Source: a virus. From it: 29,244 bases of DNA. The stretch lies in the IMG/VR virus record IMGVR_UViG_3300047168_000002, positions 1-29,244 of that record; one strand, written 5' to 3'. Shown here piece after piece: positions 16,491-29,244 of the stretch; the first letter of the stretch is position 1, and the number at the start of each line of letters is the position of its first letter. The notes under the pieces were generated by a model, which worked only from the letters and a program-made list of their open reading frames with translations, was not told the origin of the DNA and did no database searches. A program made the position numbers and the translations under genes.

Positions 16491-18470
16491 TTATTGCAGT
16501 TCGATCGCATTGACTGTGATCTGCTGGACGCTACCGCCCTGGGTGTACCACAGGGAAATGATCGGAGTCTGCCGCAGACCGCGCGCCGATGGTCCTGGGT
16601 CTTGGATGTAAAGGTAGTAGCCGAGCGAGTAAATCGTCTGGTCCACCGCGACAACTCCACCGACAACGGACGAAACCTGCGCGTTCAGCGTTTGAATTTG
16701 CGCGGACGACAGCGTCGTGCCGGGGGAAATGGCGCCGAACGCGATTGCCTGAAGCACCGGCCCGTTGCCTGACGTTGAGCCCGATATTGGCTGCCCGATG
16801 ATCGTTTCGGAGATAATCTGATATCCATCGGAGTCGTATACGATTTGCCCGATGTTCAGCAGCAGCGAGATCAACGCGGACTGGATCGAGGCATTGAGCC
16901 AGATCGCATACACATAGGCGTCGGCCCAGCCGTATCCGCCCGTGACGCTGCCGTTCTGGAAGCAGACGAAATTTCCTGTCCGTTCGGCGTATTGGCCGTA
17001 GAAGTTGTAGCCATTGCCGAGCAGGTTGGTGGATGCGGTGAGATTGCTGACGGTGGCGTTCAAGCCGGCCTGCTGTTTGTAGGCCAAAGTTTTGGCGCCG
17101 GCGATCTGGTTGAAATTCAGCGACGCGGCCCAGCTCATTGCAAATGCCGCGTCGAGAACTGACAGATAGATCAACGTCGTGCCGGACGAGTTGGAACCGT
17201 TCGGGCCGATCAGATAGCCCGTGGATGTGGTGGCCGGCAACGCCTGCGTTGGTCCGATGTCGCTGTCCCAGCACACGTACCAGTATTGGGGGCCCTGGGC
17301 GGTGCACCACGCAGAAAACGCAATCTTGTCGGCTTGGACCGGCTCAAAGATCGTTGTGAAGCTGACCCAATTTTGCGTAATCGCAATAAGGTTGGCCATG
17401 AACGCCGATGGCGTCTGATCCGCAGCCCCCTGGCTTAGGACCGCGCCAAGCGCGCTGGTGAGTGCGAGCGTGGTGGCGAGACCGCCCGTGGCATAGGTGA
17501 TTACGCTGCCGGGGCCGGCCTCGGTGCTCGTGACGACGAACGCGCCAAACAGGCTGCTGTAGGTAACGTTGAGTGCGGGTCCAGATGCGGTGATGGTCTC
17601 GCTGGCCACTGTCTGGCTAATCGAAACGATGTATGTGCCGGTCAGCCCGGTGCCCGTTCCGAATGCGACGACGGTGGTGCCAACAGTGACGCCCGTGCCG
17701 GTGAGCACTTGGCCCACCGCAAGCGTGCCGCTCGACACCGCGGACACAGTGAGCGTGCCGGCTGCCTGAGTGACCGTGCCGCTGACCACCGCAAGATCGC
17801 TGACGCTGACGGTGTAGGTGCCGACGCCGCCGGTCGTGCCGGTGATTTGCGAGGCGATCTGCAGCCCGGTCGGGATTCCTGTGCCGGATAGCGTGCCGCC
17901 GACAACCAGCGTGCCGCTCCCGACCGCCGTGACGGTCATGACATTGCCGCTTATCGACGCCGTGACCGATGCCGATGCTGCGGCAATTGCGCCCGTGACG
18001 CTGGCCTCGGTTGGTTCCGACGCCTGTAGCGCGGTTTGCAGCGTTGCGGCGGCAGCGCTCAGGCTGGACGATCCCGACAAATTGACGCCCGACGCGGTAT
18101 AGGTGGCGCCGTTGGCCGCAATGCTGATCGACCCCGAGGTGATTCCCTGCACCGCCGCAAGCGACACGCCAAAGCCGCCGCGCAGATACGCGGACACGGG
18201 CGAGGTGTTGTACTGGACGAACATCAGCGCGGCCGGTATCGAATTGGCCGTCGTGAAGCTGCCGAAATAGACCTGCGCGAAAGCGTATTGGCTGGATGCC
18301 AGACCGAAATACGCGCCCACGGCGGTGGCGGAGGCAAACGATGCGAAGGTGCCGACCGGAACGAGCGTGCTATTGTCTAACACCATTCCGGTGCAGTTCA
18401 GCGCGTTGCCGCCCGTGCCGATCACTGACCCGATGGATTGGACGAGCTGGTTGGCCGGAATGCTGGTCAT
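16491..18470 (-). CDS. Contractile tail sheath protein, DUF3383 type, with inserted repeat module
   Basis: A 659-residue protein with the DUF3383 layout found as tail sheath in myoviruses of this type. Recognisable parts are the N terminus (IPANQLVQSIGSVIGTGG, 4-21), VGAYFGLASSQYAFAQVYF, the LRGGFG segment, and the C-terminal half with YWYVCWDSDI, LAYKQQAGLNATVSN, NGYNFYGQYAERTGNF, DAYVYAIWLNASIQSAL and the closing DPGPSARGLRQTPIISLWY. Residues 156-296 are an extra Gly/Ser/Thr-rich double repeat that interrupts a loop before NVTYSSLFGAFVVTSTEAG; the same module is in the capsid cement protein. The sheath identifies the tail as contractile. The next gene downstream is the tube. Confidence 0.9.
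   Translation of the reverse strand: MTSIPANQLVQSIGSVIGTGGNALNCTGMVLDNSTLVPVGTFASFASATAVGAYFGLASSQYAFAQVYFGSFTTANSIPAALMFVQYNTSPVSAYLRGGFGVSLAAVQGITSGSISIAANGATYTASGVNLSGSSSLSAAAATLQTALQASEPTEASVTGAIAAASASVTASISGNVMTVTAVGSGTLVVGGTLSGTGIPTGLQIASQITGTTGGVGTYTVSVSDLAVVSGTVTQAAGTLTVSAVSSGTLAVGQVLTGTGVTVGTTVVAFGTGTGLTGTYIVSISQTVASETITASGPALNVTYSSLFGAFVVTSTEAGPGSVITYATGGLATTLALTSALGAVLSQGAADQTPSAFMANLIAITQNWVSFTTIFEPVQADKIAFSAWCTAQGPQYWYVCWDSDIGPTQALPATTSTGYLIGPNGSNSSGTTLIYLSVLDAAFAMSWAASLNFNQIAGAKTLAYKQQAGLNATVSNLTASTNLLGNGYNFYGQYAERTGNFVCFQNGSVTGGYGWADAYVYAIWLNASIQSALISLLLNIGQIVYDSDGYQIISETIIGQPISGSTSGNGPVLQAIAFGAISPGTTLSSAQIQTLNAQVSSVVGGVVAVDQTIYSLGYYLYIQDPGPSARGLRQTPIISLWYTQGGSVQQITVNAIELQ
17583..18005 (-). 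repeat. Double beta-rich repeat module in the tail sheath (copy 2)
   Basis: Sheath residues 156-296 hold two tandem units: one through [19 protein letters not shown] and GTTGGVGTYTVS, the next through [19 protein letters not shown] and GTGTGLTGTYIVS. They correspond unit for unit to the cement protein insertion at 22116-22541. The module breaks the sheath in an exposed loop rather than sitting at an end. Confidence 0.85.
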
Positions 18471-20903: not shown

Positions 20904-22019
20904 TCAAATCCCCAACATTGAGGCAATGCCGATCGGATATTCGATGATTGAGCCCCACGTTCCGGCCGTCTTCTTCTGCCGGAACGAGGACTCGTAACGA
21001 ATCATCGGATGTGCGCGCATTTTCTCGTTGAATCCGCAGAACCCCACGTCGTTGCCTTCCAGGCGCTTCGCGATGAGCTGGGCGAAGTTGCCGCCGGTGA
21101 TGCCCTGGGGGTTCTGCGTAGTTTTGAGGCCATACTGCACAGCGGTTTCGACGCGCAGCTTCGGGAAGTTCTTTTTGAGAAGATCGTTCACGTTGACGTT
21201 AAACGAGTTCGTTGCGGTGAGCGCAACGGCTGAACCGGGCGGGAGTGCGAGGATCATCTCGTCTTCCTGCGTCACAATGCCGGCAGTCTGCGTCACGACG
21301 TTGTAAAACAACGACTCAATGTCGGCGTAGACTTCGTTTGCAGTCGCATTGATTGCGCCGTTGTAAATCCAGACGTTGCCGTTGCCGGCCGCCTTGGCTC
21401 CGGGAGACAGGGACGCCGACAGGCTGGGGTCATTCAGCAGGCCGTAGCATTTCAGTCCCGAAACCCCGAAAAAATACGTGAGGTTCTGAAACTTGTTCAG
21501 GGTTGTGGCGGCGCTGATATTGAGTTGCGACACCCAGTTGATGCGCGCCTTTCCGGCGCGATCCATTTGCAGTTCGCCATATTCGGTAACGGTCTGGAAC
21601 AGATAGGACTGCCGCTCGGGGAATGCCGGGTTGAGACCAACGCGGCCGTTGGCGTTGAAGTCGCCGTAGCTCGACACCTCGCCGGTGCGTTCGACCTGCG
21701 GGAAAATCCAGGTCTGATCGGCCCAATCGCCGCGCTTTTCCTCGCCGAGGATGACGGCTGCCTTGTTGGGCGCGAGCAGAATTTCGATCACCTTGGGATC
21801 AACGCCAGTGGTGAAGATCGTCGGGATGCCGGCATTGGGCGTGGTGACGAGCGTCGGCAGCGCGTCCATCGCAATGCCGAAATCGTTTGGGCGCGACATC
21901 ATCTCGTCGAATGCGAGATCAACGCTGCCACGCCATGAGTCTGGCAGCCAGAACTTTGCGCCTGGCTGGACGATGCCCCATTCGGTTTCGAGTCGGGCGA
22001 AGTCGGTCATTGCGTTCAT
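20904..22019 (-). CDS. Major capsid protein, DUF2184 type
   Basis: A 371-residue protein that fits the DUF2184 major capsid family (HK97-type fold), the usual partner of DUF1073 portals and DUF2213 proteases. Visible hallmarks include the N-terminal segment with WRGSVDLAFDEMMSRPNDFG (29-48), WIFPQVERTGEVSSYGDF (104-121), NPAFPERQSYLFQT, and the C-terminal MRAHPMIRYESSFRQKKTAG followed by Tyr/Pro-rich EYPIGIASMLGI. There is no long N-terminal delta domain, which agrees with the separate scaffold region in the protease gene. The start has an AAAGGG-type ribosome-binding site. The next gene begins two bases after the stop, with GGGGA inside the capsid gene as its ribosome-binding site. Confidence 0.9.
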   Translation of the reverse strand: MNAMTDFARLETEWGIVQPGAKFWLPDSWRGSVDLAFDEMMSRPNDFGIAMDALPTLVTTPNAGIPTIFTTGVDPKVIEILLAPNKAAVILGEEKRGDWADQTWIFPQVERTGEVSSYGDFNANGRVGLNPAFPERQSYLFQTVTEYGELQMDRAGKARINWVSQLNISAATTLNKFQNLTYFFGVSGLKCYGLLNDPSLSASLSPGAKAAGNGNVWIYNGAINATANEVYADIESLFYNVVTQTAGIVTQEDEMILALPPGSAVALTATNSFNVNVNDLLKKNFPKLRVETAVQYGLKTTQNPQGITGGNFAQLIAKRLEGNDVGFCGFNEKMRAHPMIRYESSFRQKKTAGTWGSIIEYPIGIASMLGI

Positions 22020-22034
22020 GTGATCGCCCTTTCT

Positions 22035-22973
22035 TTAACCGAGCAAGTGGTTGGAAATCTTGACCAATTCGCCCGGCGCGCCCGCGCTCATCGCCACAAA
22101 CTTGGTCTGCACGTTCGTGCCGGCGGTGACGGTGGTTGATGCGGCGGTCTGCGTCGGGGACACGATATACGTGCCCGTCCCGCCCGTGCCGGTGCCGAGC
22201 GCGGTGATCACCGTGCCCGTGGTAACGCCCGTTCCCGACAACGGATCGCCGGCCCCCAGCGTGCCGGACGACACGGCGGAAACCGTGAGCGTGCCATACG
22301 TCTCGCTGATCGTGGTGGAAGCGACTGTTTGTTCTGGAATCGACACCGCGTAAGTGCCGATGCCACCGGTCGTGCCGGAAAGTTGCGAGACGATTTGCGT
22401 TCCGGTCGCCACATTGGTGCCGGAGAGGGTGCCGCCGACAACTGCCGTGCCAGAGCCGACAGCGGTGATGCTCAGAACGTTTCCGGAAATTGAGCCGGTG
22501 AAAGAGCCCGTGGACGCTGCAATGGCGCCCGTGACGGACGCGGAAGAAACAGAGCCGGCGGTAGCGAAACTCACAAGCCCGTTGGCGTAGTTCGCATAAG
22601 CGTTCATTCCAATCGTGGCTTGGGTGGTTCCGTTGTTGACCACCCAGAAATCGCCGGCCGAAAACAGCGTGACCGGATAACCGGGCGGGATCGTGAAGCT
22701 GGTCTCGGCCAGATACGTCGTGATGAGCGCTTGCAGCGACCGATGCACGAATCCCGTCACCGGACCGGAGCCGAACGAATTGACGGTCGTGGGCGCATTG
22801 TCGGGGTCAATTGTGCTGGCGTTCCACCAGGCAAACGCGCCGACTGTGACGCCCGCCGGGCCGGCCACGAGGCCGCCGGGGCCGGCGAGCACGTTGTCGC
22901 GGGGGTTATAGCTTGCGAAATCCCCGGCCACGGCGGGCGCGGGGACAGTGTTGACTTGCGTCTGAAACGGCAT
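22035..22973 (-). CDS. Capsid structural cement/decoration protein with inserted double repeat module
   Basis: A 312-residue protein in the slot before the major capsid gene where cement (head decoration) proteins sit in this phage type. The N-terminal part ([20 protein letters not shown], 13-32; VTVGAFAWW, 42-50) and the last 27 residues ([18 protein letters not shown]) look like the outer parts of such a cement protein. Between them, residues about 145-286 form a Gly/Ser/Thr/Val-rich insertion made of two similar units, also found in the tail sheath. Start is supported by GGAGGGAG a few bases upstream of the ATG. The protein should coat the capsid outside, with the insertion projecting to the medium. 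The cement assignment is by position and terminal motifs, so moderate. Confidence 0.75.
22116..22541 (-). repeat. Double beta-rich repeat module in the cement protein (copy 1)
   Basis: Residues 145-286 hold two tandem units of about 65-70 residues. The first runs through [18 protein letters not shown] and [12 protein letters not shown], the second through [19 protein letters not shown] and [13 protein letters not shown]. The same two-unit module lies in the tail sheath at 17583-18005, in the same order and with the same VTGAIA lead-in. The composition and periodic GTY-V-S ends suggest Ig-like or similar beta domains displayed on the virion surface. Confidence 0.85.
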
Positions 22974-22988: not shown

Positions 22989-23834
22989 TTACGCGCGCAG
23001 TCGGTTGATGTTCGGAAACCGCGTTTCCAGCGCCTTCGCGGCGGCGGCATCCATTGCCGGCCGGATGGGGCCGCGCGGGGCTGTCTCGGCCTTGGCGATG
23101 GCGCCGAACACTGCGGCTAGGCCGGCATCGGGGATGCCGTCGAGCTTCACGCCCTTTGCCGCAAGGGCGTAACGGTAGACCGCTTCCGCGCTGTCCATCG
23201 CCGCGAGGTTTACGTCGCCGACCAGGGGCCGCACGGCGGCGGCGGCCTCTCCGCGCGCATTGAGGCGCGCCATGACGGCTGCCTCGGTCTCCGCGCGCGT
23301 GTCTGCGCGGACTTTGGCGATCGCGGCATCCATCGCCGCCTTCGTGACCGGCTTTTCCGGCGGGAGGCTGGGCTTTGGCGTATCGCCGGGTTTCGGCGTG
23401 GCGCCCGGCGGCTCGTCCATGGCGACAGGTTTGGCTGCGGCGCACATCTTGCGCAACGATTCCTCGTTCATGTCCGGAAACAGGGTCTTCAGCTTCGCCA
23501 TCATTTCGGCGTCGCCGTCCATGTTCATGTCGGTCATGTCGTCATCTTTGGCCGGCATGGCTTGCGCAACATCGTCCATTTCGTCGGTGATATCGTCGAG
23601 TTGGTCGAGCATTGTCACAACGTTGGCAATGTCAGCGTCCTGGGCGATGCCTGACTTGAGCGAGGCCCGCACCTTTTTGCCCGTGTCGCGCCACGCCAAC
23701 AACGTTGCGTCCTTGAGCGCCGGCTTCACCGCATCGGGCGCTCGGTCCATGGCGAGCTTGACCTTGCGGGCGAACTTGCGGGCCAGGACGGCGGCCAAAG
23801 CCGCCCCCGCCGTGTTGAGCTTGGGTGCGGGCAT
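22989..23834 (-). other. Candidate internally initiated scaffold protein (281 aa) nested in the protease gene
   Basis: Met194 of the protease (first residues MPAPKLN) is preceded by AGGA seven bases upstream of the ATG, a good ribosome-binding site. Translation from here would give only the helical scaffold-like half without the protease. Nested scaffolds of this kind are known, for example lambda Nu3 inside gene C. The start falls exactly at the boundary between the DUF2213 domain and the Ala-rich region, which supports the reading. Confidence 0.55.
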
Positions 23835-24413
23835 TTGGGGTTCCTGCTGAGATGGTAGGGACGGGGCGGCATCGCCAACGCAGACATCCGAGCCGGCGCG
23901 GCCTTTTGAGACGAGGGCGACATGATTGGCGCGAAGATTGCGCATCACGCCGTCATATGGCGCGCCATCGAACGTGCCCGGCGTCATGTCGGGATCGTAG
24001 TAATACCCGGCGGAAAGTTCGGATTGGTCGCCGGATTGGATCGCCCGGATCGCATCGGCTTCCCACACGTCGAGAGCGGCCATGAGGTAGGGATCGGACC
24101 ATCTCGGGTTGCTGACGGAGCCGACCGTCAGTTCGTGGTCGTGATCCTCGGCGGTCTGTGGTTTGTGCGTGGACAGCAACGGCTTGCCGTGGAATGTCGG
24201 AGCAGACTTCTCCAACTCTTTTGGATCGCGAAGAAGCTGGTACATCCGATCAGGCTCAAGTCCCAATTCGGCATGGCGAGGTATTTCCCGGCCGTAGTAA
24301 CCGCACACCATCGCCTTGCTGATCGGGCTTTCGCTGACGTGCAAGTGACCGTCGGCGTCAATTGTGCGAACGCTCGCACCGTCGAGCGCGATGGTGTCGG
24401 CGGTGCTGGGCAT
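22989..24413 (-). CDS. DUF2213 prohead protease with C-terminal scaffold-like region
   Basis: A 474-residue protein with a DUF2213 domain at residues about 20-182, the family found as capsid-maturation protease in phages with DUF1073 portals. Seen motifs: YYGREIP (39-45), the PTFHGKPLLSTHKP segment with H75 and H83, QSELSAGYYYD with S134 as candidate nucleophile, and the closing RANHVALVSKGRAGSDVCVGD. Assignment of H75/H83 and S134 as catalytic is inference by analogy with other prohead proteases. Residues 194-474 are Ala/Asp/Lys-rich and helical, with Pro-rich spacers near 335-357, as expected of an internal scaffold digested during maturation. An internal start with its own ribosome-binding site is listed separately. 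The gene lies between the gpF-like and cement genes. Confidence 0.87.
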   Translation of the reverse strand: MPSTADTIALDGASVRTIDADGHLHVSESPISKAMVCGYYGREIPRHAELGLEPDRMYQLLRDPKELEKSAPTFHGKPLLSTHKPQTAEDHDHELTVGSVSNPRWSDPYLMAALDVWEADAIRAIQSGDQSELSAGYYYDPDMTPGTFDGAPYDGVMRNLRANHVALVSKGRAGSDVCVGDAAPSLPSQQEPQMPAPKLNTAGAALAAVLARKFARKVKLAMDRAPDAVKPALKDATLLAWRDTGKKVRASLKSGIAQDADIANVVTMLDQLDDITDEMDDVAQAMPAKDDDMTDMNMDGDAEMMAKLKTLFPDMNEESLRKMCAAAKPVAMDEPPGATPKPGDTPKPSLPPEKPVTKAAMDAAIAKVRADTRAETEAAVMARLNARGEAAAAVRPLVGDVNLAAMDSAEAVYRYALAAKGVKLDGIPDAGLAAVFGAIAKAETAPRGPIRPAMDAAAAKALETRFPNINRLRA

Positions 24414-24433: not shown

Positions 24434-25267
24434 TTAGTCTTCAAGGCCCGGAATTATTGTTTTGCTAGTGCATCGGCATTTAATCGCCGTTCCGGGCCAT
24501 ACGATCTCGCCGTCCAGACGCACGCCCTTTGCAATTTCGTAGGGCTTGCCGCTCATTGCCACATGCGACGGGCGAGGATGGCGACCCGCACCGGAGTGCA
24601 TCCATAACGCCTGCGTGCAGCCCAATTCCTGCTGGCGCACGCGCACGATGGCCGAAGTCGCTTTGCTGTTCTGGTCCCGAGCAATCGTCGTTGCCCGGCG
24701 TTTCGTTATATCGTAACGATCTTGCAGCGCTTCTCTGAGGCCGCCTATGTCGCGCCCGGTCTGAACCGATCGCATCACCAGGCCCTGCACGTCCGTCAGA
24801 TGCTCCGATGCAATCGACTTGATCAGCCCGACGTTCTCGTTGATCGTCGCGCGAAAAACATCGTTCGTGGTCACGGTTGAGTTGAATTTCACCGTAAAAC
24901 CCGCGTCTTTCAGCGCGCCCTTCAATGCCGCGTCGGATCGCTCATGGGTGGCGGTGGCGAACCATTTCGCAAGTTTGGGAGCCAAATCGTCAAACCGCCG
25001 CTGCCACCTGCGCGCGAGGGCCGCGAAAGCCCGCTGCAACGCGGCGGCGGGGCTGATGTCCTGCGCGATCTCGGGTTCGTTGGCGCGGTACGCTGCGATC
25101 AGCCAGCGATCCAGGCTGGCCTGCATGGCGGCGAGCTGGGCGTCCAGCGCGGCTTGATAACGATCCTCAATTGCGAGCGACGGGCGAATGGCACGCAGGG
25201 TGCGCGGCTTGGGAGGCCGGCGGGTGCGTGGTATGTGGCGGGGGGCGGCGGCATCGCAGGCGAGCAT
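24434..25267 (-). CDS. Phage head morphogenesis protein, Mu gpF-like
   Basis: A 277-residue minor head protein of the Mu gpF / SPP1 gp7 family, which associates with the portal during prohead assembly and is thought to act in DNA retention or ejection. The family domain is at the C terminus (about 218-277): WMHSGAGRHPRPSH, then GKPYEI, then WPGTAIKCRCTSKTI with the typical Cys-x-Cys. The N-terminal 60 residues are basic and Pro-rich, followed by a helical region. Its place after the portal is the family norm. The ATG used is the first in frame after the preceding small gene; a start further upstream at a non-ATG codon cannot be excluded because the frame stays open there. Confidence 0.9.
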   Translation of the reverse strand: MLACDAAAPRHIPRTRRPPKPRTLRAIRPSLAIEDRYQAALDAQLAAMQASLDRWLIAAYRANEPEIAQDISPAAALQRAFAALARRWQRRFDDLAPKLAKWFATATHERSDAALKGALKDAGFTVKFNSTVTTNDVFRATINENVGLIKSIASEHLTDVQGLVMRSVQTGRDIGGLREALQDRYDITKRRATTIARDQNSKATSAIVRVRQQELGCTQALWMHSGAGRHPRPSHVAMSGKPYEIAKGVRLDGEIVWPGTAIKCRCTSKTIIPGLED

Positions 25268-25305: not shown

Positions 25306-25479
25306 CTAGGCGTCCATGTCCTTCGGATCAAACCCCAGCATCATCACCACGTCCGGCGGGCTTTCGGGCAATTCCTCATCGTCGGGATCGAAGTCGCCGT
25401 CCGGGTCAATTCGCGGATCGGGCAGGGGCGTGCCCACGGCGCCGAAGTGAGCCATCGGAAGCTTTATTTCATTACTCAT
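25306..25479 (-). CDS. Small acidic protein of unknown function (57 aa)
   Basis: The gene begins at an ATG overlapping the portal stop (ATGA) and ends at TAG, leaving 38 bases before the head protein start. The product is strongly acidic, with the run DPDGDFDPDDEELPE (25-39) and a C terminus MLGFDPKDMDA. It has no Cys, no membrane segment and no recognisable domain. Translational coupling to the portal and the lack of any better reading of this interval make it a likely real gene. Its place in the operon suggests a role in head assembly, for example a portal- or capsid-associated factor, but that is inference only. Confidence 0.72.
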   Translation of the reverse strand: MSNEIKLPMAHFGAVGTPLPDPRIDPDGDFDPDDEELPESPPDVVMMLGFDPKDMDA

Positions 25480-27992
25480 GCGGCGCCCTTCCAGGAATCA
25501 AAAACGGTTGGGTTGATATAGGAATTTAGCGCAATTGACGGGGTATTGCCAAGCTTTTTAGACACGACCTCGGCAACTGCCTTAACGGCCTTGTCGCGAT
25601 CTTTTGCGGTTTTCGGCGCGTCCATGGACGATACCAATTTGACTGCGGTTGCCGTGCCAAGGTGCGTGCGAAAGTCTTTTGTCTTAAAGCTTCCGTCTCC
25701 CATCGTGTGGGTATAGTCGAGCAGCGACTTGTCCGTGACGTTGGGAAACAGCGGCCCTTCGGCGCCGGCCTTCCCGGCACGCTCGGCCAATGCGTTGGCG
25801 AGCGTCGGATCGTCCACTTTGAGATTTAGCGCCACGCCTTTCTTACCGGTAAAGCGCAGGTATGTTTCACCGTTCTCCTGCACAACGTGCTGACCCTGCA
25901 ATGTCGTGGCGCCATACGCTTTTTTGTCCGCGCCCGTGTCATCGTCACTACCGGGCCGCACGCCCATCTTCATGATGAGATCAAGACAGTCCGCAGCGTC
26001 TTTTATTCGCGGGTTTGTAGACTTCATCCCCTCGGCATTTTGCCGCTCTATTGCCGGGAACTGTTCCATCAGCGAGTTGACGCGCGAAAACTTGGCTGCC
26101 GCTTGCGTTTTGACGAACTCGTCCGAGTAGACGGATTGCAGACGCCCCTTTGCGTCTTTGCCTTGGGCTTGCAGCGCTGACCCGGGATCGTCACTGAATT
26201 TGACGTCCGTCCATGCGGGCGGAAGCTTTAATTTTTGTATGTGCGCGGGAAGCGGAGAACCGTCAGCTTGAACCCGTTTTCCGTCCTTTGTTACGGCGTG
26301 CTTCAAAAGCGCGCGATCTGTTTTCGGGGAGGATTCTGAAGGTTTTGGCTTGGGCTTTTCTGGAACTTTTGCCTTGGTTGGTGCCCCAGATGAAGCGCCG
26401 CTGCCAAACTTTCCATCCGGCGCGCGTGGGTGCTCAGACTCAACAAAATTGGCCTCATCGCCGGCGATGGGTTCCGGCGCACCCTCGTGAGGTTCCCGCA
26501 TTCCGGATCCCAGCGACGGGTCCAGCGCCTCGTCTGGGGGCTCCGGCATTACCGACAGGTCAAGCCCCTGGTAAACGCCGTCATCTTCGGCGGCAAGCCG
26601 CTCGCGCTCTTCGCGCGGGTCGAGCACTCCATCCGCGATGTAAACCGCCGCAGTGTCGGCGTTGGCTTTGCGCAGGGCGCCCTTTTCCGATTCCGTCGCC
26701 TGCCACAACGGCTCGAACGCGAACCGGATATCGGGGTCGATCTCACCGAACTCGGATAGCTGCACCAACTCAAGCGCGGCCGTGAACGGGTCCGCAACCA
26801 CATCCTCTTGCACGCCATGAACGCTGTCGTACCAGACGCGGAGCTCGCCTTCCGACGATGCGTTTAGGCCGGTAGGTGTGATCCCGAACATCTTGACCAG
26901 CGGAATGCCGGACACGCCGCTGATGTGCTCCTGGCTTTGCGCCTGGAGATGATCCAGGCCACCCAGTGGCGTCGAGACGTTGCTGAGTTCTTCAGTCGCC
27001 TTGTTGACGATCATCAGGCCCAGATTTCCGCGGATTGCGTTGAACAAATCCGCGCGCGCGCGCTCCGCATCGCCGCCGCCGTTGCTCAGCAGAGCCTGGA
27101 TGTCCGTGCTCAGAACCATCGTGGAAAATGCGTTCACCAGATCGCCCACGCTCTTTCGTGTCCGCAACCAGTTCTCGACGCATTCGATCGCCATTTGCGA
27201 TAGGGACAACCCCCCGAACAAATATGCCGGTTTCAGCAGGTCTGGCACCTCGCGCGAAACCACCCCGAACAACCTGGAGCGGTGAATCTCCTTGCCCTGC
27301 ACATACCATGTCTCCGGGTTGTAGAAATTCGGATGCAGCGGGTCCGATGCGTTGTATTGTCCCGGATAGGTCCACAGAGGTTCAATGGTTTTGAACCCAC
27401 GCAGAGAGCCGAGCTTGACTTTCTGGCGCGTGCGCAGAAGCGGCGTTCGAAGCTCTGGCAGGTTGTCGCCCGCGCCGGTGTCGGCGTATATTTGGCCGCG
27501 CCCGAACAGCCCGTCGTGAAGTATGGCCTCGCGCAATATGTCACGGACGCGGAACTTCTTCAGCGCTCCGTCGATCGCCTTGATAACGTCGAGTTTGTCT
27601 TCCTTGCCGACGTTGACTAGGCGCAACCATTTGCGCGTTGCTTCCTTGGCGTAGGTCTCGCTGATGCGTCGATATTCAGCGCGCTGGGCCAGTTCGGCGA
27701 GGCGCGGGTAGCCGATGAAGCGGATGCCGTCCCAGCCGTATTGGCCTGCGAATTGCTGTATCGCCCACTGGTTGACCGAGCAGATGTCGGAGTCCATTGC
27801 CATGGCCGGCGCATCCGGCGGCAGAACACCGGGCATCGGGGGCGGAATTGAAAACGGGTTTTTGCCTCCCGCTTTGCCGAACAGGGCGCGCGCCTCGGGG
27901 CGGATGCGCATTGCGGGCGGCGGGGCGGCTTTCGACAGCGCGGGCTCAATGCGCGGCGGGGTTGGGGTTGCGGGACGGCGCAAAGGCCACAT
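25476..27992 (-). CDS. Portal protein (DUF1073) fused to a C-terminal type IB DNA topoisomerase
   Basis: This 838-residue protein has two parts. Residues about 60-475 are a DUF1073 portal, the dodecameric DNA gateway at one capsid vertex; diagnostic stretches are GYPRLAELAQRAEYRRISE (94-112), FYNPETWYVQGKEIHRSRL (223-241), EVPDLLKPAYLFGGLSLSQ (248-266) and the WLRTRKS segment. Residues 480-560 are a Pro/Glu/Lys-rich linker with the segment HPRAPDGKFGSG. Residues about 560-838 match bacterial/poxvirus topoisomerase IB end to end: PPAWTDV (591-597), LQAQGKDAKGR (607-617), GVRPG (R679), AYGATTLQGQHV (692-703), FTGKKGV (K717), KDFRTHLGT (R775) and LGNTPSIALNSYINP (N816, Y825). The frame is continuous. 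It starts on the terminase stop and ends in an ATGA overlap with the next gene. Both family calls are strong; the purpose of the fusion is unknown. Confidence 0.93.
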   Translation of the reverse strand: MWPLRRPATPTPPRIEPALSKAAPPPAMRIRPEARALFGKAGGKNPFSIPPPMPGVLPPDAPAMAMDSDICSVNQWAIQQFAGQYGWDGIRFIGYPRLAELAQRAEYRRISETYAKEATRKWLRLVNVGKEDKLDVIKAIDGALKKFRVRDILREAILHDGLFGRGQIYADTGAGDNLPELRTPLLRTRQKVKLGSLRGFKTIEPLWTYPGQYNASDPLHPNFYNPETWYVQGKEIHRSRLFGVVSREVPDLLKPAYLFGGLSLSQMAIECVENWLRTRKSVGDLVNAFSTMVLSTDIQALLSNGGGDAERARADLFNAIRGNLGLMIVNKATEELSNVSTPLGGLDHLQAQSQEHISGVSGIPLVKMFGITPTGLNASSEGELRVWYDSVHGVQEDVVADPFTAALELVQLSEFGEIDPDIRFAFEPLWQATESEKGALRKANADTAAVYIADGVLDPREERERLAAEDDGVYQGLDLSVMPEPPDEALDPSLGSGMREPHEGAPEPIAGDEANFVESEHPRAPDGKFGSGASSGAPTKAKVPEKPKPKPSESSPKTDRALLKHAVTKDGKRVQADGSPLPAHIQKLKLPPAWTDVKFSDDPGSALQAQGKDAKGRLQSVYSDEFVKTQAAAKFSRVNSLMEQFPAIERQNAEGMKSTNPRIKDAADCLDLIMKMGVRPGSDDDTGADKKAYGATTLQGQHVVQENGETYLRFTGKKGVALNLKVDDPTLANALAERAGKAGAEGPLFPNVTDKSLLDYTHTMGDGSFKTKDFRTHLGTATAVKLVSSMDAPKTAKDRDKAVKAVAEVVSKKLGNTPSIALNSYINPTVFDSWKGAA
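25479..26315 (-). other. Topoisomerase IB domain within the portal fusion protein
   Basis: Portal residues 560-838 form what looks like a whole small TopIB: a short N-terminal beta region ending in the PPAWTDV signature, then the helical catalytic domain. By motif alignment with the vaccinia (R130, K167, R223, H265, Y274) and Deinococcus (Asn in place of His) enzymes, the equivalents are R679, K717, R775, N816 and Y825; the N816-Y825 spacing of nine matches both. Y825 would form the 3'-phosphotyrosyl link. All active-site residues are present, so catalytic activity is plausible. In eight 60-base lines counted by hand across 25501-26040 GC is about 55%, against about 62% in four lines of the portal part, a weak hint of separate origin. 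Confidence 0.9.
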
Positions 27993-29244
27993 CAGCGGCG
28001 GCCGAAAGCGGCGATGGCGGACGGGTTGATGCGCATGGGTGGCGCGGACAATCCTACCATTCCAAATGCTCTGCTCAGCGCGTCCACATGGTCATCGTGC
28101 GCGGCAGCGGGGAAACCCGCCATCTCATCCAGCAGCGGTCGGTTCCACGTCGCAGCCAGCATTGCGACGTTTCCAACATTGACTTGTGCCGCAAACGGAC
28201 CGGCGCGCGTGGCCTTGTCGCCGGTCTCTGTCCCAGTCTCGACGCGATACCCAGCCAGGGCGCGCGTGAGATAGAGCGCCTGCGTCTTGCCGGCCTGACC
28301 GGGATCTTGGGGCAGACCGATGCGGACGGAAGCGCCGTCCTGTTTCGCGGTGTTGACGATTGCCGCTTCGACCTCATCGGGGCCGCCGCGCAGTCGCATT
28401 GCGTCGAGCACGACATAGCGGCCAGAGTCTTCGCGCAGCAGCTTTATGCCGACAGTCCAGTCCGGGTCGCGGGTGCCGACCTGCTTTGTGGCCGCCAAAT
28501 CCCACGCGCGAACGACATTGCGACCAAGCGGAGCGGCCGGCAAAATGTCGATCTTGGCCGTGTGAAACAGCGCGCCTTCGGCCGGCCGGGGGTCTTGCTG
28601 ATACAGAGCGGACCAATCGCGCATTGCGCCGGCCGCTTCGTATTCCCGATGCACGAGGCGCAGCTCGGCGCCGTATCCGTAGGCGTCATCGCCCCAAAGG
28701 TATTCGCCCGGCGCCCGGCCAATAGGGTCAGCATCGCCTGCCTTGGCTGGCAGTTTCAAAACGCGCCAAAGGCCGGGTTGCCGGTCCAGCAGCCGGCCGC
28801 CGAGATCGTCGGCGTGCCAGCGTGTCATGATCACCACGATGGCCGCGCTCGGCTTCATTCGGGTGCGCAAATCAGAAGTGAACCAATTCCATTGCGACTC
28901 GCGCACGGTCTCGCTGTCTGCGGACTCTCGGTTGCGCACCGGATCGTCGATCAACACGAGATCGGCACGGCGCCCGGCAATGGCGCCCCCGACGCCAGCG
29001 GCAAAATACTCACCCCCGTGGTTGGTTTCCCAGCGCCCGACCGCCTTGCTGTCGGCGGACAAGCCATATCCCAATCGCAACGCATGGTCGCTTGCGGTGT
29101 TTCGGACCTTGCGGCCAAATCGTTGCGCAAGCTCATCGGTATGGGATGCGGCGATGATGTTGCCGCGCGGAAACTGCGTGAACCACCAAGCCGGAAACAG
29201 CACCGACGCATAAGTTGACTTCGCGGAACCCGGCGGCATCAGCA
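27992..29244 (-). CDS. terL: Phage terminase large subunit (5' end outside window)
   Basis: This is the ATPase-nuclease motor that cuts concatemeric phage DNA and pumps it through the portal into the prohead. Residues here are numbered from the first Met in the window; the frame is open to the edge, so the true N terminus is missing. Visible motifs are a Walker A-like PPGSAKST (residues 2-9), a Walker B LVLIDDP (94-100), a motif III-like segment IVVIMTRWHADDL (134-146), and the RNase H-like nuclease: WDLAAT (D247) and the C-terminal HDDHVDAL (381-388), whose Asp residues would bind metal. These are the expected parts of a T4/Terminase_6-type large subunit. The stop codon overlaps the portal start (TGATG). 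A small terminase gene is expected just outside the right edge. Family assignment is firm; the packaging strategy cannot be read from this part. Confidence 0.96.
   Translation of the reverse strand, partial: LMPPGSAKSTYASVLFPAWWFTQFPRGNIIAASHTDELAQRFGRKVRNTASDHALRLGYGLSADSKAVGRWETNHGGEYFAAGVGGAIAGRRADLVLIDDPVRNRESADSETVRESQWNWFTSDLRTRMKPSAAIVVIMTRWHADDLGGRLLDRQPGLWRVLKLPAKAGDADPIGRAPGEYLWGDDAYGYGAELRLVHREYEAAGAMRDWSALYQQDPRPAEGALFHTAKIDILPAAPLGRNVVRAWDLAATKQVGTRDPDWTVGIKLLREDSGRYVVLDAMRLRGGPDEVEAAIVNTAKQDGASVRIGLPQDPGQAGKTQALYLTRALAGYRVETGTETGDKATRAGPFAAQVNVGNVAMLAATWNRPLLDEMAGFPAAAHDDHVDALSRAFGMVGLSAPPMRINPSAIAAFGRR

Follow-up and report, generated by a model that had tools for sequence, protein, structure and literature searches.

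The fused gene and its head module

The window, a 29,244-nt stretch of viral DNA that was analysed as a whole (IMG/VR record IMGVR_UViG_3300047168_000002), contains a gene that joins a DUF1073 portal, a linker and a predicted type IB topoisomerase (TopIB) in one reading frame. This gene sits within a head module comprising terL and the genes for a MuF protein, a DUF2213 protease, a cement protein and the major head protein (Table 1). A repeat segment rich in alanine, serine, glycine and threonine is common to the cement protein and another structural protein, of 659 aa (16491-18470, minus strand; cross-match E 2e-39).

Table 1. Positions in the window of the fused gene, its predicted parts and the neighbouring head genes
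Feature	Position	Strand	Remarks
Terminase large subunit (terL)	27992..29239	minus	N-terminal part cut off by contig end
Fused gene, DUF1073 portal - linker - type IB topoisomerase	25476..27992	minus	838 aa
Portal domain	26568..27815	minus	residues 60-475; Pfam match 99-449
Predicted disordered linker	26298..26567	minus	residues 476-565 (~90 aa)
HPR tag (putative cargo tag), FVESEHPRAPDGKFGSG	26397..26447	minus	linker residues 516-532
Predicted type IB topoisomerase domain	25479..26297	minus	residues 566-838
Acidic partner, MSNEIKLPMAHFGAVGTPLPDPRIDPDGDFDPDDEELPESPPDVVMMLGFDPKDMDA	25306..25479	minus	57 aa; ATG overlaps fused-gene stop by 4 bases (ATGA)
MuF (SPP1 gp7-like) minor head protein	24434..25267	minus	Pfam/PHROG
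DUF2213 head maturation protease/scaffold	22989..24413	minus	Pfam/PHROG
Cement protein	22035-22973	minus	
Major head protein	20904..22019	minus	Pfam/PHROG

An earlier sequence-only reading of this DNA had proposed the portal-TopIB fusion, and its coordinates and uninterrupted 838-aa frame proved exact: the gene runs from an ATG at 27992 to a stop at 25476-25478 in a single frame without internal stop. The DUF1073 identity that it gave the portal was borne out by Pfam (Phage_portal_3/DUF1073, residues 99-449, E 5.8e-79, profile positions 5-356 of 357), by a PHROG portal match (E 4.6e-102) and by the placement of the gene between terL and MuF. For the C-terminal half it had suggested a TopIB profile search and a structural model, and both gave the predicted outcome. 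Pfam found Top1B_N_bact at residues 569-613 (E 9.1e-8) and Topoisom_I at residues 629-820 (E 4.4e-17), and all three Pfam matches of the protein exceed their curated cut-offs. Searched against the PDB, a profile of the TopIB family matched the Deinococcus radiodurans (2f4q, E 7.5e-40) and variola (2h7f, E 2.8e-18) enzymes over the whole domain. As modelled by AlphaFold (pLDDT 88), the domain has the TopIB fold, with these same two enzymes as the nearest PDB folds (E 3e-14 and 3e-13, respectively), and the five active-site residues R679, K717, R775, N816 and Y825 (the R-K-R-(H/N)-Y pentad) are as claimed. By profile, modelled fold and pentad, the fused C-terminal domain is a type IB topoisomerase, with a predicted relaxation activity through a 3'-phosphotyrosyl intermediate. 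An assembly artefact or chance joining is excluded by the Pfam, PDB and fold results, together with the recurrence of the one-frame DUF1073-TopIB fusion in 20 further viral loci, each with a distinct TopIB domain.

In a full-length model most of the portal region has pLDDT 70-94 and most of the TopIB 80-96, while linker residues 486-560 fall below 50, suggesting disorder. GC3 drops from 0.76 in the portal to 0.59 in the linker and 0.63 in the TopIB, which fits a later addition. Two features that the sequence-only reading did not mention, a short linker tag and the gene for a 57-aa protein immediately downstream, turned out to recur among the relatives of this TopIB and are described below.

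Relatives of the TopIB and their carriers

Among the 50,697 records of isolated phages in INPHARED, 1053 matched the portal half of the fused protein; for the TopIB half the sole match was a stand-alone gene of a Bacteroides phage, at 27% identity. The collection held no DUF1073-TopIB fusion and no carrier of a TopIB of this type. Our literature searches brought up no paper that links a portal to a TopIB, so the view that the fusion is undescribed, also put forward by the sequence-only reading, stands on both counts.

Relatives were found in viral contigs. Patterns made from close relatives gave no matches there and profile patterns were required; a scan of genome contigs with patterns tuned to the phage family gave two relatives only. 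The IMG/VR profile scan returned 129 TopIB relatives, of which 80 were kept (a first scan had given 58). The collections were sampled by pattern, and the relatives described here are those among the matches listed. Once identical domains were removed, at least 92 distinct TopIB domains remained in viral contigs. Their pentad is invariant wherever present (R 91/91, K 92/92, R 92/92, N 91/91, Y 91/91), as expected if catalysis has been maintained.

We classified the carriers with HMMs built here from Pfam-identified examples. TopIB is joined to a DUF1073 portal in 21 cases (the window included), to MuF in seven, to a lambda-type portal in three, to a Mu-type portal in two and to a DUF2213 protease in two; a further 34 are stand-alone, 16 are other long proteins and seven are truncated. 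Two of the 16 other long proteins are PF04860 portals by Pfam, which brings the portal families with TopIB fusions to four: DUF1073, lambda-type, Mu-type and PF04860. Companion domains in the TopIB-bearing polypeptides of relatives include the predicted effectors InPase, NUDIX and ADP-ribosyltransferase (ART); in the window protein TopIB is the only cargo domain. Two loci are unusual in other respects. One 281-kb contig (L066), from a large phage, has two TopIB-like genes of 320 and 494 aa, and in one MuF-TopIB protein (L053:3700-6801) the MuF domain is seemingly split by an intein-like insertion.

Could the enzyme simply be an ordinary replication or recombination protein that came to lie near or in head genes through gene shuffling? 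TopIB chemistry would suit replication, and a head gene was recognised in the locus for 15 of the 34 stand-alone and 7 of the 16 other long TopIBs (lower bounds, as the head-gene HMMs are narrow), leaving 19 and nine, respectively, with none recognised. Recurrent in-frame fusion to varied structural proteins, a common tag and effector-like companions argue against this explanation, which we regard as very unlikely.

We also made a quick maximum-likelihood tree of the viral TopIBs with 21 cellular TopIBs, all from one phylum, in which the viral domains lie on one side of a branch separating them from the cellular ones (SH-aLRT 96). On this tree the DUF1073-portal label changes 12 times by parsimony, at least three of them on well-supported branches, and the MuF label at least three times. 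These changes suggest that the TopIB domain has moved repeatedly between carriers, and the fusion to DUF1073 portals is estimated from the tree to have arisen at least three times. The nearest relative of the window's TopIB belongs to a NUDIX-TopIB protein (L064, 63% identity).

A short HPR tag precedes TopIB and other enzyme domains

Many phage TopIB domains are preceded by a tag of about 20 residues with the consensus [FW]xE[SG][DKE]HPRxxDGKFGSGGG. Its core, HPR...G.(K/R/E/Q)F, is found upstream of 50 of the 87 TopIB domains that have at least 25 upstream residues, usually at a spacing of 10-42 residues, against a mean of 0.04 and a maximum of 2 in 500 trials with shuffled upstream sequences. 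Look-alikes precede several further TopIB domains.

To see the tag independently of TopIB, we used a DNA-pattern scan for HPRxxxGKFxxGG, a pattern in which TopIB played no part. Conservation extended to positions outside the pattern: in 84 occurrences among the matches listed, F or W stands at -5 in 98%, E at -3 in 98%, D at +5 in 75% and G at +13 in 85%. Pfam assignments for 74 tagged proteins among the matches listed were DUF1073 portals (20), NUDIX (10), ART (8), TopIB (8), lambda-type portals (7), Zeta (4), MuF (4), DUF2213 (3), InPase (2), LPD3 (2), and SAM lyase, GNAT and GIY-YIG-like (1 each). The tag precedes ART, NUDIX, Zeta, InPase and GNAT cargos as well as TopIB. One 1351-aa protein (L117:964-5016) has six HPR tags; the stretches between the tags match ParB, GNAT and HipA/PI3K-like kinase domains weakly.

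A 24-aa tag consensus matched nine of the 50,697 isolated-phage records at an E limit of 10, and the four matches that we opened (L335-L338) all lie within DUF1073 portal proteins. Pseudomonas phage Orimi01 (L335:2270-4378) encodes a portal-tag-ART protein, Faecalibacterium phage FP_Brigit (L336:1985-4468) a portal-tag-NUDIX fusion, and Xanthomonas phage PhiXhv-5 (L337:2302-4395) a portal-tag fusion whose cargo has no assigned identity. These three are annotated merely as hypothetical or portal proteins, and as cultured phages they are usable models.

Other short motifs occupy the same place in some relatives. HGIKGMKWG (Pfam DUF7211) replaces the HPR tag before TopIB in L058 (residues 199-214), and a segment of L046 (residues 419-433) was grouped with it; GHEFHGNQW (L047), a GSGNFGH-type motif (L051) and GGPGSGRHP (L037, L039) also precede TopIB. 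Several tag types may therefore exist. Literature searches found no paper on the DUF7211-type motif KGMKWG.

A small acidic partner is linked to the phage TopIBs

The 57-aa protein encoded downstream of the fused gene belongs to a family with the consensus xHFGxxxxxxDWRxxxxDDPDDEELxxTPxDVIxMLGFDP, found beside 84 of 91 distinct phage TopIBs and with every TopIB carrier type. In these 84 cases the partner is a separate small ORF (44), the N-terminus of a longer next ORF (30; a head protease in some cases), fused to TopIB (7) or on the opposite strand (3). Its start lies within 100 nt in 65 of the 74 same-strand, non-fused cases; the opposite-strand partners, convergent with TopIB, are at L016:6738-6950, L024:6918-7049 and L074:6109-6504 (minus strand). 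The partner HMM was built on these same loci, which makes 84/91 a descriptive figure; the tests are the control loci and a reverse scan. No partner was found in 186 TopIB-free phage loci or in the 21 cellular TopIB loci. Of the 60 loci reached from the partner, 57 had TopIB no more than 3 kb away. Since some loci overlap on one contig, distinct TopIB domains are the unit of counting where relevant. The three exceptions are a locus at the opposite end of the contig whose TopIB lies in L011 (L383), a locus that begins at the partner (L384), and a DUF1073 portal (L377, 1342-3090, plus strand) that ends in ...FVESEHPRADDG-DNDEELKETPASVIALLGFDPKGE, the tag joined directly to the partner tail. In this last protein TopIB looks to have been deleted between tag and partner.

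The partner had no convincing match among PHROGs, its segment in the proteins that carry it fused has no reported Pfam match, and the window's copy matched no isolated phage. Distances among TopIBs and among partners are correlated (Mantel rho 0.29, 0/2000 permutations), as would be expected from interaction or from plain co-inheritance.

What the partner does can be read in two ways. It may complete TopIB, as a small subunit or regulatory domain standing in for the C-terminal tail of the cellular enzymes. In favour, 23-74 residues follow the TopIB domain in the 21 cellular enzymes and 0-10 in most phage ones, and where the partner is fused it is C-terminal to TopIB in one polypeptide, that is, at the position of the tail. 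Partner and cellular tails show no detectable sequence relation, however: homology was rejected (hhalign E 0.37, with shuffles equally good in 15/100), and we retain a positional analogy alone. The partner is also a separate gene in most loci, and on the opposite strand in three. We rate the subunit role as quite possible, a little under an even chance.

Alternatively, the partner may be an immunity protein or inhibitor that would keep a harmful TopIB inactive in the producing cell, perhaps as a DNA mimic, until delivery. Immunity proteins are usually diverse, whereas one partner family serves nearly all of these TopIBs. Furthermore, fusion to TopIB in 7/91 and to the N-terminus of a longer ORF in 30/91 suggests that it may travel with the enzyme. 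On the other side stand the charge difference (median pI 4.05 for the small separate ORFs, 9.7 for TopIB), the linkage to TopIB and absence elsewhere, the ATGA overlap in the window, and the place of this small ORF immediately after TopIB, an arrangement usual for the toxin-immunity pairs of MuF polymorphic toxins (PMC5576092). We hold this role only tentatively. Both readings are compatible with TopIB as virion cargo.

The portal C-terminus as a slot for enzymes

Tails of at least 100 aa were present in 19 of 68 complete DUF1073 portals near that of the window, and the HPR tag in 11 of the 68. The domains on DUF1073 portal tails include ART, NUDIX, Zeta, InPase, GNAT and histidine phosphatase. 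The sequence-only reading had guessed that this end of the portal might generally accept enzyme cargo and had proposed a survey of the domains on long DUF1073 portals; these tails bear its guess out. Its example, Acb1 at the C-terminus of DUF1073 portals, did not turn up among the tail domains of the portals sampled. A survey of polyvalent proteins describes 2H-phosphoesterase domains fused to MuF or portal domains (PMC5512222).

That reading had also suggested that a topoisomerase might work by virtue of its place at the portal. On such a scheme up to 12 portal-anchored TopIB domains would act as a swivel, relaxing packaged DNA or the torsion of packaging or ejection, and position would matter. 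The portal, the ring by which DNA passes into and out of the capsid, contacts DNA, and TopIB is fused to it in the window and 20 related loci as well as in three other portal families. As a general function this found no support: the same TopIB is on MuF, on a protease, on unrelated portals or in a separate gene in many relatives, and enzymes without a topological role fill the same portal slot. The L377 portal, with its tag and partner remnant, indicates that the portal persists without TopIB. The portal is one among several TopIB carriers, which weakens a portal-only role, and we consider the swivel unlikely.

Discussion

Altogether, tag, TopIB and partner constitute a mobile module that is attached to several kinds of virion protein and keeps its catalytic residues. 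We think it probable, though far from assured, that TopIB is a virion cargo, carried on the portal C-terminus in the window, which is delivered with the DNA and relaxes DNA. The strongest argument is that ART, NUDIX, InPase, Zeta and GNAT domains occupy the same slots and stand behind the same tag, in agreement with the packaged polyvalent proteins predicted by Iyer et al. (PMC5512222). We infer packaging, release, delivery, catalytic activity and target from gene content and sequence.

In this proposal, TopIB would be packaged as part of the portal in the window; in relatives it would be packaged as part of MuF or of the protease, or as a protein of its own, which often has the tag. During infection it would be delivered together with the phage DNA, perhaps once set free from the portal by way of the flexible linker. 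Since the portal domain itself should stay with the virion, portal-borne delivery would need a putative linker cleavage. Once delivered, TopIB would relax DNA without ATP. Its most likely target would be the incoming phage DNA, in which torsion could be trapped while an end is held by virion or host machinery, and relaxation could ease first transcription or circularisation. Alternatively, the host chromosome might be relaxed as part of takeover. A bacterial TopIB (P. aeruginosa PAT) needs no ATP to relax supercoils of either sign (PMC2666729), and vaccinia TopIB is among the listed virion enzymes (PMC1540416), which makes early action on incoming or host DNA the most natural reading. A bolder version, to which we give rather less than even odds, is that virions of uncultured phages contain and inject a two-part topoisomerase, TopIB plus its ~57-aa partner, which would control DNA topology as infection begins, and that the tag, which many other effectors would use as well, is a general signal for virion loading or release.

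If this is true, the apparent virion-borne activities of tailed phages would come to include DNA topology, in parallel with the poxvirus virion topoisomerase. The HPR tag and the TopIB-linked acidic partner appear to be undescribed. The tag would offer a simple means of drawing up a list of probable virion cargo for any phage genome, and at about 20 residues it would make head-cargo loading and release amenable to mutational test. The TopIB-specific partner would be a biochemical handle, with inhibitor and subunit separable by a relaxation assay.

Comparison with known systems

T4 marks proteins that are packaged in the head and ejected with the DNA by a short N-terminal capsid targeting sequence. 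The HPR tag could serve similarly; unlike the T4 sequence, it also lies inside fusion proteins.

Polyvalent proteins are multi-domain head-module proteins predicted to be packaged and injected; some of their enzyme domains, PBECR, 2H and InPase included, are joined to a portal or MuF domain (Iyer et al., 2017; PMC5512222). ART, InPase and GNAT domains are common to them and the TopIB loci. As with such effectors, the TopIB gene of the window and those of relatives, though not of all, lie among virion structural genes or are joined to them. In relatives TopIB also has a polypeptide or slot in common with other effectors (ART, NUDIX, InPase, Zeta, GNAT). The main text of that paper describes no topoisomerase, the word occurring solely in a cited title, and as far as searched it contains neither the HPR tag nor the acidic partner (PMC5512222).

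MuF polymorphic toxins resemble the window in joining a head protein to a C-terminal enzyme with a small ORF directly downstream (PMC5576092); in the window that ORF is present and TopIB-specific. They differ in that the window's carrier is a portal, with no N-terminal MuF domain, and in that one conserved partner family takes the place of varied immunity proteins. TopIB is not mentioned in that paper (PMC5576092).

Bacterial and poxvirus TopIBs (2f4q; PAT, PMC2666729; variola 2h7f; vaccinia H6R) have the same fold, pentad and arrangement of N-terminal and catalytic domains. Enzymatic activity is established for them and predicted for the phage family. The phage TopIBs form a separate sequence group that lacks the C-terminal tail, and many of them are fused to virion proteins and have a nearly constant small acidic partner.
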